A stretch of 42,598 bases of DNA from the NCBI GenBank assembly GCA_021817985.1, contig JAKAFK010000026.1, forward strand, positions 1 to 42,598, written 5' to 3'. This stretch comes from Pseudomonadota bacterium. Its GTDB lineage: Bacteria; Pseudomonadota; Gammaproteobacteria; Burkholderiales; JAKAFK01. This document shows positions 29,398 to 42,508 of the stretch, piece by piece. The stretch's first letter is position 1. Each line of letters begins with the position of its first letter. The translations under genes were made by a program, and so were the position numbers. Under the pieces are notes generated by a model that saw only the letters and a list, made by a program, of their open reading frames with translations, did not search any database and was not told where the DNA came from.

Positions 29398-29429
29398 GCT
29401 CGGGGTCCTTGCGTCTGCTGACCCGCCCA

Positions 29430-29442
29430 TTCTAAATTAGAA
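29430..29442 (-). promoter_or_regulatory. Palindrome in the bioA upstream region
   Basis: TTCTAAATTAGAA is a perfect palindrome around a single central base, 32 bp before the bioA start and in an AT-rich patch that could hold a -10 box. It could bind a dimeric repressor. It does not match the BirA operator and only loosely resembles BioR sites, so the regulator is unknown. Confidence 0.35.
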
Positions 29443-29530
29443 GGCCATGCCGGCACAGGCCCGGGACCCGGCGAACGCCATACGAAATAGAGGGACGCCG
29501 CAGCCCCGACTCGTTGGGGGCTCTGCACGG

Positions 29531-29752
29531 TCAGCGAGTTGGGCTCACACGCCCAGTCGCCCGCCTGGTCACCAGCAGATAGACGATCGGGAGGATGCCC
29601 ACGGTATTGAGGGCCAACATGCAGATAAACCAGAGGGTCTGGCCTCGTCTCGCGGCTCGCCAGAGCCCGAGGCCCTTCCAGACGAGGTCCCAGACAATGG
29701 CCAGCGGGAGCCAAACGATCATCCAATGGGGAAGGTTGGGCACGATTGACAT
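29531..29752 (-). CDS. Small membrane protein, DUF5652-like
   Basis: This 73-residue protein has two hydrophobic segments: WMIVWLPLAIVWDLVW (about residues 10-25) and WFICMLALNTVGILPIVYLL (about 41-60), with a basic loop RAARRGQ between them. The pattern, WKGLGLWRAARRG then LWFICMLALNTVGILP, matches the DUF5652 family of uncharacterised two-helix proteins. A strong AGGAGAGAGG ribosome site lies before ATG 29752. It lies upstream of bioA on the same strand with an imperfect AGCCCC/GGGGCT hairpin between them. No role is known; the size suggests a small helper of a membrane complex or a phage-shock-like envelope protein, which is a guess. Confidence 0.7.
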   Translation of the reverse strand: MSIVPNLPHWMIVWLPLAIVWDLVWKGLGLWRAARRGQTLWFICMLALNTVGILPIVYLLVTRRATGRVSPTR

Positions 29753-30071
29753 GGACCTCTCTCCTTTGCCGTCTCACCCTCGCTCAGCAGCCGGCATCAC
29801 ACGCCCTGCGCCAAAGCCGGCGTCGTGGCAGCATACCCGAACGCCCGCGGGGAGCCCGGACGAGACAGTCAATACTGGCGTCGATGCGGCGGGCGCCCCG
29901 GCCCGGATCGCAGGCGCTCGCCTCGGAGATCGAGCAGCGCCCCTGCCGCGCAAACCCACCGCATGTGCAGCATCGCCAGGCCCCTTGGGGCGCCATGGGG
30001 CGATGCCGGACTGGCTACGCGATCCGGGAAGGCGCACTGATGAACAGGGCCTGCGGAGTGCGTCACCCTTG
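29753..30071. other. Gap without a recognised gene
   Basis: These 319 bp hold only overlapping frames without ribosome sites or recognisable proteins. It should include the promoter of the leftward DUF5652-like gene, but I cannot point to a convincing box. Confidence 0.4.
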
Positions 30072-30644
30072 TCACCAATAGTGCCTGTGCCGCTCTTCGT
30101 GGCGCTGCCAGCGCAGGGGCCGCGGATTCGGCACGGGGCCGACATACCGCTTGTAAGCTTGAATCCAGTTCGTGGCGATCGCATGCTGTGCTTGGCGCAA
30201 CCCCAGGACACCGTCGCACACCAGGCGATGCAATCTCCCCTCAAGCCTGTCCTTGGCATACGAGCCCCACCCGCCCTGCACATCATGCGGCTCTGGCCAG
30301 AGGTTGAGGGGACTGGTGGGGCTGCCTCCCAGTTCAAGGCTGATCAGGTGGTCTTCTTCGAATTCTCCCAAACGGTAGCGGCGGCCATAATAAGCAAGGA
30401 CTTGGTGCCACTTCAGGCGTTCGGTGTATCGCTCCGGCGGCCTTACGCTCGCGGTATAGCCCCCCCTTCGGCAGATCGTCTCGTGCAGGCTGTACGGGGT
30501 GACGCGCGGGTCGATCGCGCCGGGCGTCATGCGAGGGTCTGGCAGTGCATCGGCGAGCGGGAAAGTGCGCTGGTGGTACGAATATCCCCACGCCTGCGTC
30601 ATGGGGGACAGCAGGAGGCACAGCAGACAGAGCAGCTCACGCAT
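30072..30644 (-). CDS. Secreted protein with HNH-like DHL core
   Basis: This 190-residue protein begins with a hydrophobic signal sequence (MRELLCLLCLLLSPMTQAWG), with a likely cut near residue 18-20. The mature protein has EEDHLISLELGG (residues 96-107), SPLNLWPEPHD (111-121), then AKDRLEGRLHRLVCDG, a spaced D-H, N and H pattern like that of HNH nuclease folds. Similar secreted proteins with a DHLIPLELGG signature occur in many proteobacteria, usually annotated as hypothetical. ICRRGGYTASVRPP is another conserved block, and a Cys near residue 58 could pair with C143. ATG 30644 has AGGGA about 10 nt upstream. Nuclease activity is inference. It has its own promoter region, with no partner gene nearby. 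Confidence 0.75.
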   Translation of the reverse strand: MRELLCLLCLLLSPMTQAWGYSYHQRTFPLADALPDPRMTPGAIDPRVTPYSLHETICRRGGYTASVRPPERYTERLKWHQVLAYYGRRYRLGEFEEDHLISLELGGSPTSPLNLWPEPHDVQGGWGSYAKDRLEGRLHRLVCDGVLGLRQAQHAIATNWIQAYKRYVGPVPNPRPLRWQRHEERHRHYW

Positions 30645-30920
30645 GGCGGTTGTCCCTATCGGTTTCGCTGCAGTCACACAGGCTCAAGCAGGCTCCGCCA
30701 TCATCTGATGCACGGCGCCCGGCGCCTCGCGTTCTGTGAAACACCGACGTCCCCCGCCTGGTAACGATATCACGTCTCTACGGCCCGGCACTGCCGCGAG
30801 GAAGGCGCTCGATCGTCCCGCAGGGTCCTTCGTCGATCGTAGTCGTCGCCCGAACCTGGGCCACGACGGAGGACATCTCGCCGCACGGAAACAGAAGCTC
30901 ACCGGGCCGCGCAAACTGCA

Positions 30921-30945
30921 GCCCATCCGCTTCAGCGGATCGGGC
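30921..30945 (-). terminator. Hairpin just past the rhlE stop
   Basis: GCCC-ATCCGC-TTCA-GCGGAT-C-GGGC folds into a 10-bp stem with one bulged base and a 4-nt loop, 7 bp beyond the stop of the leftward helicase gene. No T run follows, so it is a 3'-end hairpin of uncertain strength. Confidence 0.45.
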
Positions 30946-30952
30946 GTGTCAC

Positions 30953-32272
30953 TCAGGCGACATCGCTCAAACAGCGTCGCCCCTGCGGGGCCGGCGCTTT
31001 GGCCGTGGCACCGCGAACGGCGCGAGTCGATGTTTCGCTTCGGCTGCGGCCGCTTGTCGCACGGCCGGATCCCGCGCGCACGTTCGCGTTCCGATTGCCC
31101 GCCGGGCGTTGCACGATCGGCATCGCCCGAACCGATGGATCCGGCTCATAGCCCGGAATCACGCCTTTCGGAATCTCCCGCTTGAGCATCCTTTCGATAT
31201 CGGCAAGCAGCTTGTGCTCGTCCATGCAGACCAGCGAAATGGCATCGCCCTCGTTGCCGGCCCGCCCGGTGCGGCCGATGCGATGCACATAGTCCTCGGG
31301 GACGTTGGGCAACTCGAAGTTCACCACGTGCGGGAGCTGATCGATGTCCAGCCCTCGCGCCGCAATGTCGGTCGCGACCAACACGCGCACGGCGCCCTGC
31401 TTGAAGTCGCTCAGCGCGCGGGTGCGTGCCCCCTGACTCTTGTTGCCGTGAATCGCAGCGGCACGGATGCCGTCGCGCTCCAGCTGCTCGGCAAGACGGT
31501 TGGCGCCGTGCTTGGTGCGCGTGAACACCAGCACCTGCTTCCAATTGCGGGAGCCGATCAGGAACGAGAGAAGCTCGCGCTTGCGCTCGCGGTCGACAAA
31601 ATGAACGCTCTGCGCCACCCGCTCGGATGCGGTATTGCGACGGGCCACTTCGATCAACGCGGGCGAATTCAGCAGGCCATCGGCGAGCTTCTTGATTTCA
31701 TCGGAAAAGGTCGCCGAAAAAAGCAGATTCTGCCGCGTCTTGGGCAGAACGGCCAATATTCTTCGGATATCGCGAATGAATCCCATGTCGAGCATGCGGT
31801 CGGCTTCGTCGAGCACCAGGACTTCGACGTGAGACAAGTCCGCGGTCTTCTGGCCCACGTGGTCGAGCAGGCGGCCCGGCGTTGCGACGAGAATGTCCAC
31901 GCCGTTTCGCAGCTTCTCGATCTGCGGCTTGATATTGACGCCGCCGAAGATGACCGCCGAACGCACGGGCATGTGCTTTCCGTAGGTGGCGACGCTCTCG
32001 CCCACCTGGGCGGCCAGTTCGCGCGTGGGCGTCAGAATCAGGGCGCGGATGGTGCGCCGCGCCCCCTTGTGGGCATCGGCCTTCAAAAGCTGCAACAGCG
32101 GCAACGTGAACGCGGCGGTCTTGCCGGTGCCGGTTTGCGCGCCGGCCATGATGTCGCGTTTTTCCAGGATCGGGGGAATGGCCTGGCGTTGTATGGGCGT
32201 GGGGTCTGCATAGCCTTTTTCAGCGACCGCACGCAGCAATTCGGCCGACAGGCCGAGCGTATCGAATGACAT
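30953..32272 (-). CDS. rhlE: DEAD-box ATP-dependent RNA helicase RhlE-type
   Basis: This 439-residue RNA helicase unwinds structured RNA and aids ribosome assembly and mRNA decay. The Q motif lies in [13 protein letters not shown] and [11 protein letters not shown], Walker A is [12 protein letters not shown] (near residue 45), motif Ib is [10 protein letters not shown], the DEAD box [12 protein letters not shown] near 155, SAT in LFSATFSDE, and motif [17 protein letters not shown] near 330. The C-terminal tail, about 70 residues, is basic and rich in Arg, Ser and Ala, an RNA-binding extension as in RhlE. It is divergent from cspA across a 393-bp gap. cspA-rhlE neighbourhoods are seen in other betaproteobacteria. 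RhlE rather than CsdA or RhlB is my best reading. Confidence 0.93.
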
Positions 32273-32536
32273 ATGGAACTGCTCCGAAACCGGCCTGTCC
32301 GAGGCTCACGCCTTGGGTCGGTATAGGCGGGGTATATTGTTGAATTCGAGGCTAGCCGGTGGAGGATGACCGCGAAGAGGTCAGGCGGCATACCGAAATG
32401 CGCCAGAACGATGCACAAGGATAACAGATTGCCCGCCCGAAAGCTCTAACCGTCTGGCCCGTATGTCTTGTGGGCCGCAAAGGTTGCTCTCCGATGGCGT
32501 TTGGAAATAGTGCTGGTGTTCCCTCCACGACTGGCA

Positions 32537-32542
32537 TATAGT
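32537..32542 (+). promoter_or_regulatory. Candidate -10 box of cspA in the rhlE-cspA gap
   Basis: TATAGT stands 124 bp before the cspA start, giving a leader of about 115 nt. This length fits the structured 5' leaders of cold-shock genes. No strong -35 box is seen at 17 bp. The 393-bp gap 32273-32665 should also hold the leftward rhlE promoter. CGGTTCCC at 32578-32585 also occurs after the infA promoter candidate. Confidence 0.4.
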
Positions 32543-32665
32543 GACGCCTGCGGCAGATTTCAAGTCGGCAGTTTCAGCGGTTCCCTCCGGTTACTTCCCG
32601 AATCAACTCCCCAGGACCTGCACGCACAACGCGATTCCGATCTCAATCTTCAAAGGCACACATTC

Positions 32666-32869
32666 ATGGCTACAGGCACTGTCAAGTGGTTCAACGACTC
32701 CAAGGGCTTCGGTTTCATCACGCAGGACAATGGCGGTGCCGATGTGTTCGTGCACTTTAGCGCCATTCAAGGGTCGGGCTTCAAGACCCTGACCGAAGGC
32801 CAGCCCGTCGCGTTCGACGTGGAAAACGGACCCAAGGGCCTGCAGGCCGCCAACGTCGTTCCCGCCTAG
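32666..32869 (+). CDS. cspA: Cold-shock domain protein CspA family
   Basis: This 67-residue single cold-shock domain binds single-stranded RNA and DNA and melts RNA structure. RNP1 KGFGFIT and RNP2 DVFVHFSAI are intact, preceded by [11 protein letters not shown], the usual start. The aromatic residues on the nucleic acid-binding face (Trp, Phe, Phe, His, Phe) are all present. It ends NVVPA. A long leader precedes ATG 32666, and the gene heads a rightward run with an RRM protein, IF-1 and a second RRM protein. Whether it is cold-induced cannot be told from sequence. Confidence 0.95.
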
Positions 32870-33058
32870 CCCCACATCACGACAGGCCTCGACGCCCGAT
32901 GCGTCCCGAGAAACCGGCATGCGGTGAGAACGGGGCTCCGTAGCACGGGGAGACCACGCATTGGCCCATGCTTGCCGGTCCTTCCCGCAGATCAACCGCT
33001 AGCGCAACCTCCCGCAACAGCCGTCCGGGGCCGCTTATTCACAACCGGGGATCGAATC

Positions 33059-33325
33059 ATGAAAACCCTCTTCGTCAGCAACATCCCGCCGCTCGCCACA
33101 GAGACCGATATCAAGGCACTCTTCTCCGCCTACGGTACGGTACGCAAGTTGGAAATGCCCCGCGACATTTTTTCGGGCCGATGCAAAGGCTTCGCCCTCA
33201 TCGACATGGAAGGGCATGAGGCCCGCGCCGCCGCCGCGGGCTTGGATGGCAAGTCGTTCATGGATGCCCAGCTGAGAGTCCGCGACGAAAAACCGGCTCA
33301 AAAGGGCAAGGGACGCCGCAGGTAG
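33059..33325 (+). CDS. RRM RNA-binding protein (first copy)
   Basis: This 88-residue protein is a single RNA recognition motif. RNP2 is LFVSNIP (residues 4-10) and RNP1 is CKGFALIDM near residue 43, where the usual Gly-Phe-Val is changed to Phe-Ala-Leu but both aromatic positions are partly kept (Phe at one). It ends with a short basic tail, KGKGRRR. A GGGGA site precedes ATG 33059. It lies 189 bp after cspA, with no terminator between them, and 317 bp before infA. Small bacterial RRM proteins (RbpA-like) are often cold-induced in cyanobacteria; their role in proteobacteria is poorly known. It shares about the same fold as the second copy at 33982 but has no Gly-rich tail. Confidence 0.88.
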   Translation: MKTLFVSNIPPLATETDIKALFSAYGTVRKLEMPRDIFSGRCKGFALIDMEGHEARAAAAGLDGKSFMDAQLRVRDEKPAQKGKGRRR

Positions 33326-33437
33326 CCCGCGGAAAGAGCGGGAGGACATCCCCCCGCGCAACGATACGGCCACCTCATCCCCCGCGTCTTGAGCGCGATG
33401 CTGCCCGGCCTCACGCACCCGCGGTCCTGAAATGCTG

Positions 33438-33443
33438 TATAGT
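33438..33443 (+). promoter_or_regulatory. Candidate -10 box of infA
   Basis: TATAGT lies about 200 bp before the infA start, matching the hexamer seen before cspA, and is followed by CGGTTCCC at 33473-33480, also found in the cspA leader. No good -35 box is visible. The 317-bp gap holds no supported gene. Confidence 0.35.
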
Positions 33444-33642
33444 GCTGGAATAGGGGCCTGATGCCTCGCCATCGGTTCCCGGGCCCTTCAGGGTCATTTC
33501 CGTGTCGTTTCCTTCCAGCCCTGGTGCCCTCCCTGCCGAGCACCGCGCTGCAACGCTTGGCATTGGGCTTCATTTTTCCACGCGATGGCCTGCCCTGTCG
33601 TGTCACCGGCCCGTCGTGGTCTGCGCTACCGAGGCTATCGAA

Positions 33643-33909
33643 ATGGCTAAAGAGGAATTGATCGAGATGGAGGGCGTCGTCACCGAGGTCCTGCCGGCCA
33701 CGCGCTTCCGAGTGAGGCTGGACAATGGCGTCAATGTGTTGGCGTACGCATCGGGAAAGATGAGGGCGCATCGGATCCGCATCCTGGCAGGCGATAAGGT
33801 GACGCTCGAAATATCCCCCTATGACGTGTCGAAAGCGCGCATACGGTTCCGACATAAGGACGAACGTTCGTTCGTTCCAGCGGCACGCCCAAACGCCACT
33901 CGGCGCTGA
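33643..33909 (+). CDS. infA: Translation initiation factor IF-1
   Basis: This 88-residue S1-like OB-fold protein binds the A site of the 30S subunit and helps IF-2 and IF-3 in choosing the start codon. It starts [18 protein letters not shown] and includes [31 protein letters not shown] and IRFRHKDE, clear IF-1 blocks. It is longer than the 72-residue E. coli form through a C-terminal tail ([14 protein letters not shown]), as in betaproteobacterial paralogues. GAGG lies 9 nt before ATG 33643. Its place between two RRM genes and near cspA, not in a ribosomal protein operon, suggests a second, stress-type infA. IF-1 is cold-induced in E. coli. Confidence 0.93.
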
Positions 33910-33922
33910 GCTGTTTCAATTT

Positions 33923-33945
33923 CGGGGCTGCGGCCCCGCTCTTTC
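33923..33945 (+). terminator. Likely terminator after infA
   Basis: CGGGGC-TGCG-GCCCCG (33923-33938) makes a 6-bp GC stem followed by CTCTTTC, 14 bp past the infA stop. The T run is short, so termination may be partial and allow some read-through to the next RRM gene. Confidence 0.5.
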
Positions 33946-33981
33946 AATCAGGTGTTTCCAGTCAGAGGAGTGTTTTCCAAA

Positions 33982-34314
33982 GTGAGCAAGAAATTATATG
34001 TCGGCAACCTCAGCTACGAAGTGACGGGCGAGGACCTTCAGGCGCTGTTCGCCAACTACGGAGAAGTGCAGTCCGCGCAAGTGATCACTGACCGTGCGAC
34101 AGGGCAATCGAAGGGCTTCGGGTTCGTCGAGATGAGCAACGGGCAAGAAGCACAGACCGCGATCTCCGCGCTGAACGGCAAGGAGCTCAAAGGGCGGAAC
34201 CTCAACGTGAACGAGGCGCGACCCCAAGCAGACAGTGGGAGAGGCGGCGGATCCGGAGGCCCGCGTCGGGACGGATACGGACGCGGAGGCGGGGGAGGCG
34301 GACGCCGATATTGA
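33982..34314 (+). CDS. RRM RNA-binding protein with Gly/Arg-rich tail (second copy)
   Basis: This 110-residue protein is a single RRM. RNP2 is LYVGNL (residues 5-10) and RNP1 is KGFGFVEM near residue 44, both complete. The domain ends near residue 82, then comes a Gly- and Arg-rich tail (SGRGGGSGGPRRDGYGRGG) that resembles the RGG tails of cold-inducible glycine-rich RNA-binding proteins of plants and cyanobacteria. GTG 33982 (VSKKLYVGNL) is taken as the start; AGAGGAG lies 12-18 nt upstream, and GTG 33970 and 33952 are alternatives. It follows infA, behind a hairpin. It is likely an RNA chaperone. Convergent with the histidine kinase gene. Confidence 0.92.
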   Translation: MSKKLYVGNLSYEVTGEDLQALFANYGEVQSAQVITDRATGQSKGFGFVEMSNGQEAQTAISALNGKELKGRNLNVNEARPQADSGRGGGSGGPRRDGYGRGGGGGGRRY

Positions 34315-40351: not shown

Positions 40352-40427
<76 letters not shown>

Positions 40428-42409: not shown

Positions 42410-42508
42410 GGCATCCCTTTCCGATGCGCCCTTCAAGATGGGAGCCACGGCGTCCGGGTGAAAGGTTCCCGGTTTTCGGCCCGCGAAGCCTAGCCGTGGC
42501 GTAATCGG

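Follow-up and report, generated by a model that had tools for sequence, protein, structure and literature searches.

The stretch analysed here, referred to as the window, is the 42,598-nt contig JAKAFK010000026.1 (positions 1 to 42,598, forward strand) of the assembly GCA_021817985.1, obtained from a Pseudomonadota bacterium of the Burkholderiales (JAKAFK01) whose genome is 96 % complete in 184 contigs. Five genes for RNA-handling proteins lie within 3.4 kb of this contig: rhlE for a DEAD-box RNA helicase, csp for a cold-shock protein, infA for a translation initiation factor 1 (IF-1), and two genes for proteins with an RNA recognition motif (RRM), here called RRM-A and RRM-B (Table 1). This block had been pointed out in a first-pass annotation made from the letters alone, and all five genes were found in place, with their domains confirmed by Pfam and NCBIfam models.

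Table 1. Genes and intergenic features of the RNA-handling block; positions refer to the window
Feature	Position	Strand	Description
rhlE-type DEAD-box RNA helicase gene	30953-32272	-	439 aa; Pfam DEAD + Helicase_C
rhlE-csp divergent intergenic region	32273-32665	.	non-coding, fold ordinary, well conserved vs sister genome
csp, cold-shock-domain protein	32666-32869	+	67 aa; Pfam CSD E=2e-31
RRM-A, short single-RRM protein	33059-33325	+	88 aa; Pfam RRM_1 E=3e-15
infA, type-2 IF-1	33643-33909	+	88 aa; TIGR00008 103.2 bits
GC-rich hairpin, infA/RRM-B gap	33923-33938	+	terminator-like, poor T-run; seen in fold, no hit in terminator scan
RRM-B, Gly/Arg-rich-tailed RRM protein	33982-34314	+	110 aa, GTG start; Pfam RRM_1 E=2e-24

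The helicase had its best NCBIfam match in the RhlE model PRK10590 (728.8 bits) and narrowly missed the curated cut-off of 743; as this equivalog cut-off was not reached, it is named RhlE-type only. The csp product passed the Pfam CSD threshold of 27 with 108.1 bits and stayed below the cut-off of the CspE equivalog NF049933 (117.5 vs 120 bits). The product of the window infA passed the TIGR00008 cut-off of 61.15 bits; its residues 1-72 aligned without gaps to IF-1 chains of the PDB, and a C-terminal extension reaches past the usual 72 aa. Both RRM proteins exceeded the RRM_1 gathering score of 20.7, RRM-A with 56.2 bits and RRM-B with 85.4 bits, and RRM-B also passed the model NF058537 (Rbp_regulator) with 122.9 bits at a cut-off of 100. 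The Pfam and NCBIfam scores of RRM-B were computed on a translation from an upstream start at 33952, while the GTG at 33982, preceded by AGAGGA, is our choice of start.

Four of the genes are on the plus strand, separated by gaps of 189 nt (csp/RRM-A), 317 nt (RRM-A/infA) and 72 nt (infA/RRM-B). The helicase gene alone is on the minus strand, diverging from csp across 393 nt, and therefore the five genes cannot be one operon. The window genome holds three infA, three RRM_1 and six CSD matches and three matches above 300 bits to the helicase; a random scatter of these copies would yield about 4e-10 such clusters in 3.4 kb, a post hoc figure for a gene set that was picked after sight.

One further genome of the same genus was found (G001, 92 % complete), and the comparison within the genus rests on these two genomes. 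Positions 30943-33364 of the window align to this sister genome with 88 % DNA identity, and rhlE, csp and RRM-A are kept, RRM-A being 97 % identical. The sister contig ends after RRM-A and one further open reading frame (ORF), which by eye only resembles an IS200/IS605-type OrfB. Two infA genes were detected in the sister genome, neither at this locus, and RRM-B was not found in its 92 %-complete assembly. Of the right flank of the window, the sister genome matches only a kinase region (78 %) and some short segments. On the other side of the block, about 1.5 kb of the window (29400-30943) stands opposite roughly 0.3 kb in the sister genome. The ORF at 30072-30677 on the minus strand possibly encodes a secreted protein, HNH-nuclease-like by eye only.

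The region between the divergent rhlE and csp genes is a candidate for joint control of both. Upstream of rhlE, 172 of the 180 positions from 32263 to 32442 are identical to the sister genome, compared with 88 % for the whole aligned stretch. A small ORF in this conserved rhlE leader was ruled out, since the differences between the two genomes alter residues in all six frames. The fold of the divergent region is not special (z 0.18), and an Rfam scan of it reached no family at threshold. Scanning for a shared sigma-70 promoter says little, with none found and 0.7 expected. Repeats between the leaders are short and two-copy and may be due to chance. Further downstream, the hairpin between infA and RRM-B could weaken read-through.

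The first-pass annotation had taken the IF-1 gene for an extra copy outside the ribosomal operons. A search for further infA genes in the window genome bore this out. The C120 copy lies between secY and rpsM, the gene of S13, and is the ribosomal-operon one; the C3 copy starts 79 nt after a csp gene, near sodB; the window copy is the third. Type-2 infA, to which the window and C3 copies belong, is a separate, well supported lineage apart from the IF-1 of the ribosomal operon. When 53 IF-1 sequences were placed in a tree, the 22 ribosomal-operon copies of the order fell together with the E. coli protein on one side of a branch with a support of 100/99, and the type-2 side comprises the window, C3 and plasmid copies together with 27 other non-operon copies. 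The branch was kept in 100 % of 200 bootstrap trees, computed from 83 columns and with a bootstrap that had not fully settled. All 20 of the 5-kb loci fetched for the canonical infA had the order secY-infA-rpsM and zero csp matches.

The spread of the two types was surveyed in a sample of 60 genomes, which takes mostly one or two genomes from each family of the order and includes the window genome. An infA was present in 59 of them, the genome without a match being G047 (98 % complete). The second type, in rows sorted by us and checked with the tree, occurred in 27 genomes. In seven genomes the only infA match was of type 2 (G005, G011, G019, G020, G022, G054 and G059; the assemblies of G005 and G054 are single contigs). 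The ribosomal-operon copy has apparently been replaced in these seven, which suggests that it is replaceable. Because it is the sole infA match there, the type-2 protein can probably serve as a working, full IF-1.

All five genes together were found in no other locus scanned. The sister genome keeps three, and four at most were encountered, in a single locus (L116 of genome G048), which has csp, RRM, rhlE and infA inside 3.2 kb. This four-gene cluster was ruled out as a family trait by the other three genomes of the family: the distance between infA and the RRM gene is 2.4 kb in G048 and 24 kb in its congener G091, and the two are on separate contigs in G131 and G169. The idea that the five genes stay together in relatives thus did not hold, and a five-gene block as one conserved system is not supported. 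What holds up of the first-pass interpretation is the extra infA and two parts of the neighbourhood, since csp with type-2 infA and rhlE with RRM genes are much commoner within 1 kb of each other than at 1-8 kb.

This enrichment was measured in the 60-genome sample at loci from other genera, by comparing matches within 1 kb with those 1-8 kb away; the counts of 26 and 19 loci exclude the own-genus rows (2 of 28 and 5 of 24), and matches below 25 bits were not counted in any neighbourhood tally. A csp match accompanied type-2 infA in 10 near and 3 far cases among 26 loci (p 2e-7), and for rhlE and RRM genes 6 near and 0 far cases were obtained among 19 loci (p 5e-6). The pair of rhlE and infA gave 2 near and 0 far cases in 26 loci (p 0.016). 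A second set consisted of the best 80 of at least 421 confirmed relatives of the window infA, some of which may recur among the 28 loci that came from the 60 genomes; within 1 kb of infA, 36 of these 80 had a csp, five an RRM gene and three rhlE. An RRM gene adjoins type-2 infA in 6 of 108 loci, five from the 80 chosen by similarity and one from the 28 of the sample. The order is a tandem rhlE-RRM-infA in L054 and L056, and RRM and infA are divergent in L053, L062 and L068; two of these RRM-bearing infA loci are in records titled as gammaproteobacteria. Searching with RRM-A yielded matches in 59 of 300 genomes, from which 20 regions were fetched. Among 32 RRM loci of mixed origin, for the most part picked for their likeness to RRM-A and with the sister genome included, rhlE lay within 1 kb in 13 cases, csp in four and infA in one. 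The window csp has its nearest relatives outside the genus among infA-paired csp genes (72-73 %), a result that is biased because the loci were collected largely by infA.

The fetched loci hold two kinds of RRM proteins, one short, about 84-90 aa long and ending in a few basic residues, the other longer and tailed. Many of the short proteins adjoin rhlE. RRM-A is of the short kind, and it is closest in size and sequence to the short RRM proteins often located beside rhlE in other families; its relatives beyond the sister genome reach 44-45 % identity at most. Where the RNP1 motif usually carries an aromatic residue, RRM-A has a leucine. RRM-B is of the tailed kind. Its Gly/Arg tail had been likened to eukaryotic and cyanobacterial glycine-rich proteins. 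Long Gly-rich tails also mark six further RRM proteins of the order, encoded in five genomes (L165, L167, L169, L171, L183 and L185); with such tails present within a bacterial order, the tail alone is no sign of a eukaryotic or cyanobacterial origin. The RRM proteins encoded beside infA in L110 and on the plasmid pTB101 have short tails only.

The block is best explained as two stress RNA-chaperone modules stacked side by side, and not as one conserved five-gene system, an interpretation to which we assign a probability of a little below 60 %. The first module would consist of rhlE, csp and the short RRM gene and is common to the sister species; the second would be type-2 infA followed by the Gly/Arg-tailed RRM gene, present in the window species only of the two genus genomes. 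The products may act in the way known from the E. coli cold shock. Judged from their families, the Csp and RRM proteins would bind single-stranded mRNA and melt or shield its structure, and RhlE would unwind duplexes. The extra IF-1 might keep 30S initiation supplied when ribosome assembly lags or subunits are short. Cold or a similar stress would probably be the inducer, with more than one promoter probably in use. In favour of the two modules are the near-versus-far enrichment of csp with type-2 infA and of rhlE with RRM genes, the RRM genes beside type-2 infA at six loci and on one plasmid, the three genes kept in the sister genome, and the uniform, csp-free context of the canonical infA.

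Several observations weigh against this interpretation. The p-values of the gene pairs treat the loci as independent, which related genomes are not. In the 60-genome sample, RRM and infA had 1 near and 1 far case (p 0.24, not significant), and csp and RRM 1 near and 0 far cases among 19 loci (p 0.13); with these weak counts, the second module and the link of csp to RRM rest on few cases. On plasmids of Caballeronia and Cupriavidus metallidurans, infA has no other gene of the block within 3 kb. The leader folds in the block are not unusually stable, and the cspA thermoregulator RF01766 scored 39.7 bits at a gathering score of 78, over a span (32560-32869) that includes coding region. A structured cold-shock leader is thus supported neither by the Rfam scores nor by the folds.

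Compatible with the two modules is the view that infA and RRM-B are a horizontally acquired cargo beside a resident rhlE-csp-RRM-A, which we regard as a real possibility with the odds somewhat against it. Over its first 72 residues the window infA product shares 67 % identity with the C3 copy, against 82 % with copies from other lineages; in the trees the C3 copy clusters with the sister genome (support 99/94 and 99/90), and the window infA has its place elsewhere. The window infA is therefore no recent local duplicate of the C3 copy. An acquisition is further in line with the lack of this infA and of RRM-B in the sister assembly and with a right flank that for the most part has no syntenic match there. 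Among 119 plasmid records with an IF-1 match, three loci were inspected; one of them, on the Aquabacterium olei plasmid pTB101 (L195), has an RRM gene 87 nt downstream of a type-2 infA. The plasmid was typed as non-mobilizable; an infA-RRM pair thus can reside on a plasmid. Against a transfer stands the weakly supported position of the window infA, 83/58 in one tree and 81/82 in the 53-sequence tree. The infA of the plasmid and of L110, both paired with RRM genes, belong to the subgroup of the C3 copy (97/96) and not to that of the window, so the adjacency of infA and RRM genes has probably arisen more than once. Moreover, the sister assembly is incomplete, and the contig in question breaks off shortly behind RRM-A within the ORF judged IS-like by eye, so that a loss of infA and RRM-B there is as likely as a gain in the window species.

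A broader scenario, which we put forward with considerable doubt, sees in the second IF-1 an ancient stress specialist that was kept by betaproteobacteria and some gammaproteobacterial relatives and travels with Csp, RRM and RhlE proteins as an alternative kit for translation initiation. The C-terminal extension of IF-1 and an RRM partner would steer the 30S subunit to structured or stress mRNAs, and the window would be the most complete form.

It is unlikely, and slightly more so, that the block is a neighbourhood without joint function, in which small, highly expressed genes for RNA-binding proteins tolerate the same chromosomal context. The varying order and orientation of csp and infA among the best 80 loci fit such a view: of 36 csp-bearing loci, csp is on the same strand upstream of infA in 25, convergent in nine and otherwise placed in two; the weak pairing of RRM genes with csp and infA in the 60-genome sample would also be expected. 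However, the near-versus-far enrichment of csp with infA and of rhlE with RRM genes speaks for more than tolerance, as does the one constant order, with gaps of 5-205 nt, in every one of the 12 loci with a csp among the 28, a count that includes the own genus. Least of all do we favour one dedicated five-gene stress system, co-regulated and with products acting jointly on the same mRNAs to restart translation, for which the five functionally related genes in 3.4 kb, their minute, post hoc chance expectation and the four kinds in 3.2 kb at L116 may be cited, but which is very improbable in view of the missing second complete locus, the absence of infA and RRM-B from the sister assembly, the infA-RRM distances in the G048 family, the divergent rhlE and the gaps of 189, 317 and 72 nt between the other genes.

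Parts of this arrangement have counterparts in described systems; already in print are the adjacency of helicase and RRM genes (PMC9313427) and second IF-1 genes (PMC2864759). In Cupriavidus metallidurans, infA2 (Rmet_5176) is listed as a second IF-1 gene (PMC2864759). The window likewise has an extra IF-1 gene, and the copy on the CH34 megaplasmid, presumably Rmet_5176, is 64 % identical to the window protein; it differs in that its surroundings are free of csp, RRM and rhlE matches to a distance of 3 kb, and the window genome differs in having two type-2 copies. The naming is inconsistent, as infA2 of Bordetella pertussis is listed between secY and rpmJ (PMC7742992). CspA, IF1 and IF3 rise in the cold shock of E. 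coli (PMC6511846). The window has the Csp and IF-1 classes in common with this set and is unlike E. coli in its RRM genes, since a control search of E. coli gave no RRM_1 match. E. coli has a single infA; in strain K-12 it lies 3.6 kb from cspD, with clpS, clpA and serW between.

The single-RRM protein AB-Elavl of Acinetobacter baumannii is encoded 74 bp from an ATP-dependent helicase gene (PMC9313427), which resembles the rhlE-RRM neighbours found here within 1 kb in 6 of 19 loci. In the window, by contrast, rhlE points away from RRM-A and is separated from it by csp; the available part of that report leaves the helicase type unspecified. Cyanobacterial Rbp1, with a Gly-rich tail, and the tail-less Rbp2 are single-RRM proteins like RRM-B and RRM-A, respectively. 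Rbp1 of Synechocystis is required for cold adaptability, and its Gly-rich tail is reported as dispensable there (PMC9333190); unlike in the window, no connection of the two proteins with infA, csp or rhlE appears in the portion of PMC9333190 at hand. Searches of the open-licence PMC literature yielded no description of a csp-infA2 or infA2-RRM linkage and none of a type-2 IF-1 function. New in the window is the stack of recurring gene pairs, and the linkage of type-2 infA to csp, more rarely to RRM genes and rhlE, leads directly to the hypothesis of a stress-specific initiation.

A phage origin of the block was ruled out by 16 phage records whose matches, all partial and in the helicase or csp part, reached 60-80 % identity and spanned no more than 31 % of the query. 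Near the end of the contig an int-alpA RNA is located at 42430-42500 on the minus strand, beyond a tRNA-Phe gene at 40352-40427 on the plus strand, and this end of the window is possibly the edge of an integrative element. Parts of the int-alpA-bearing end recur on other contigs of the genome.

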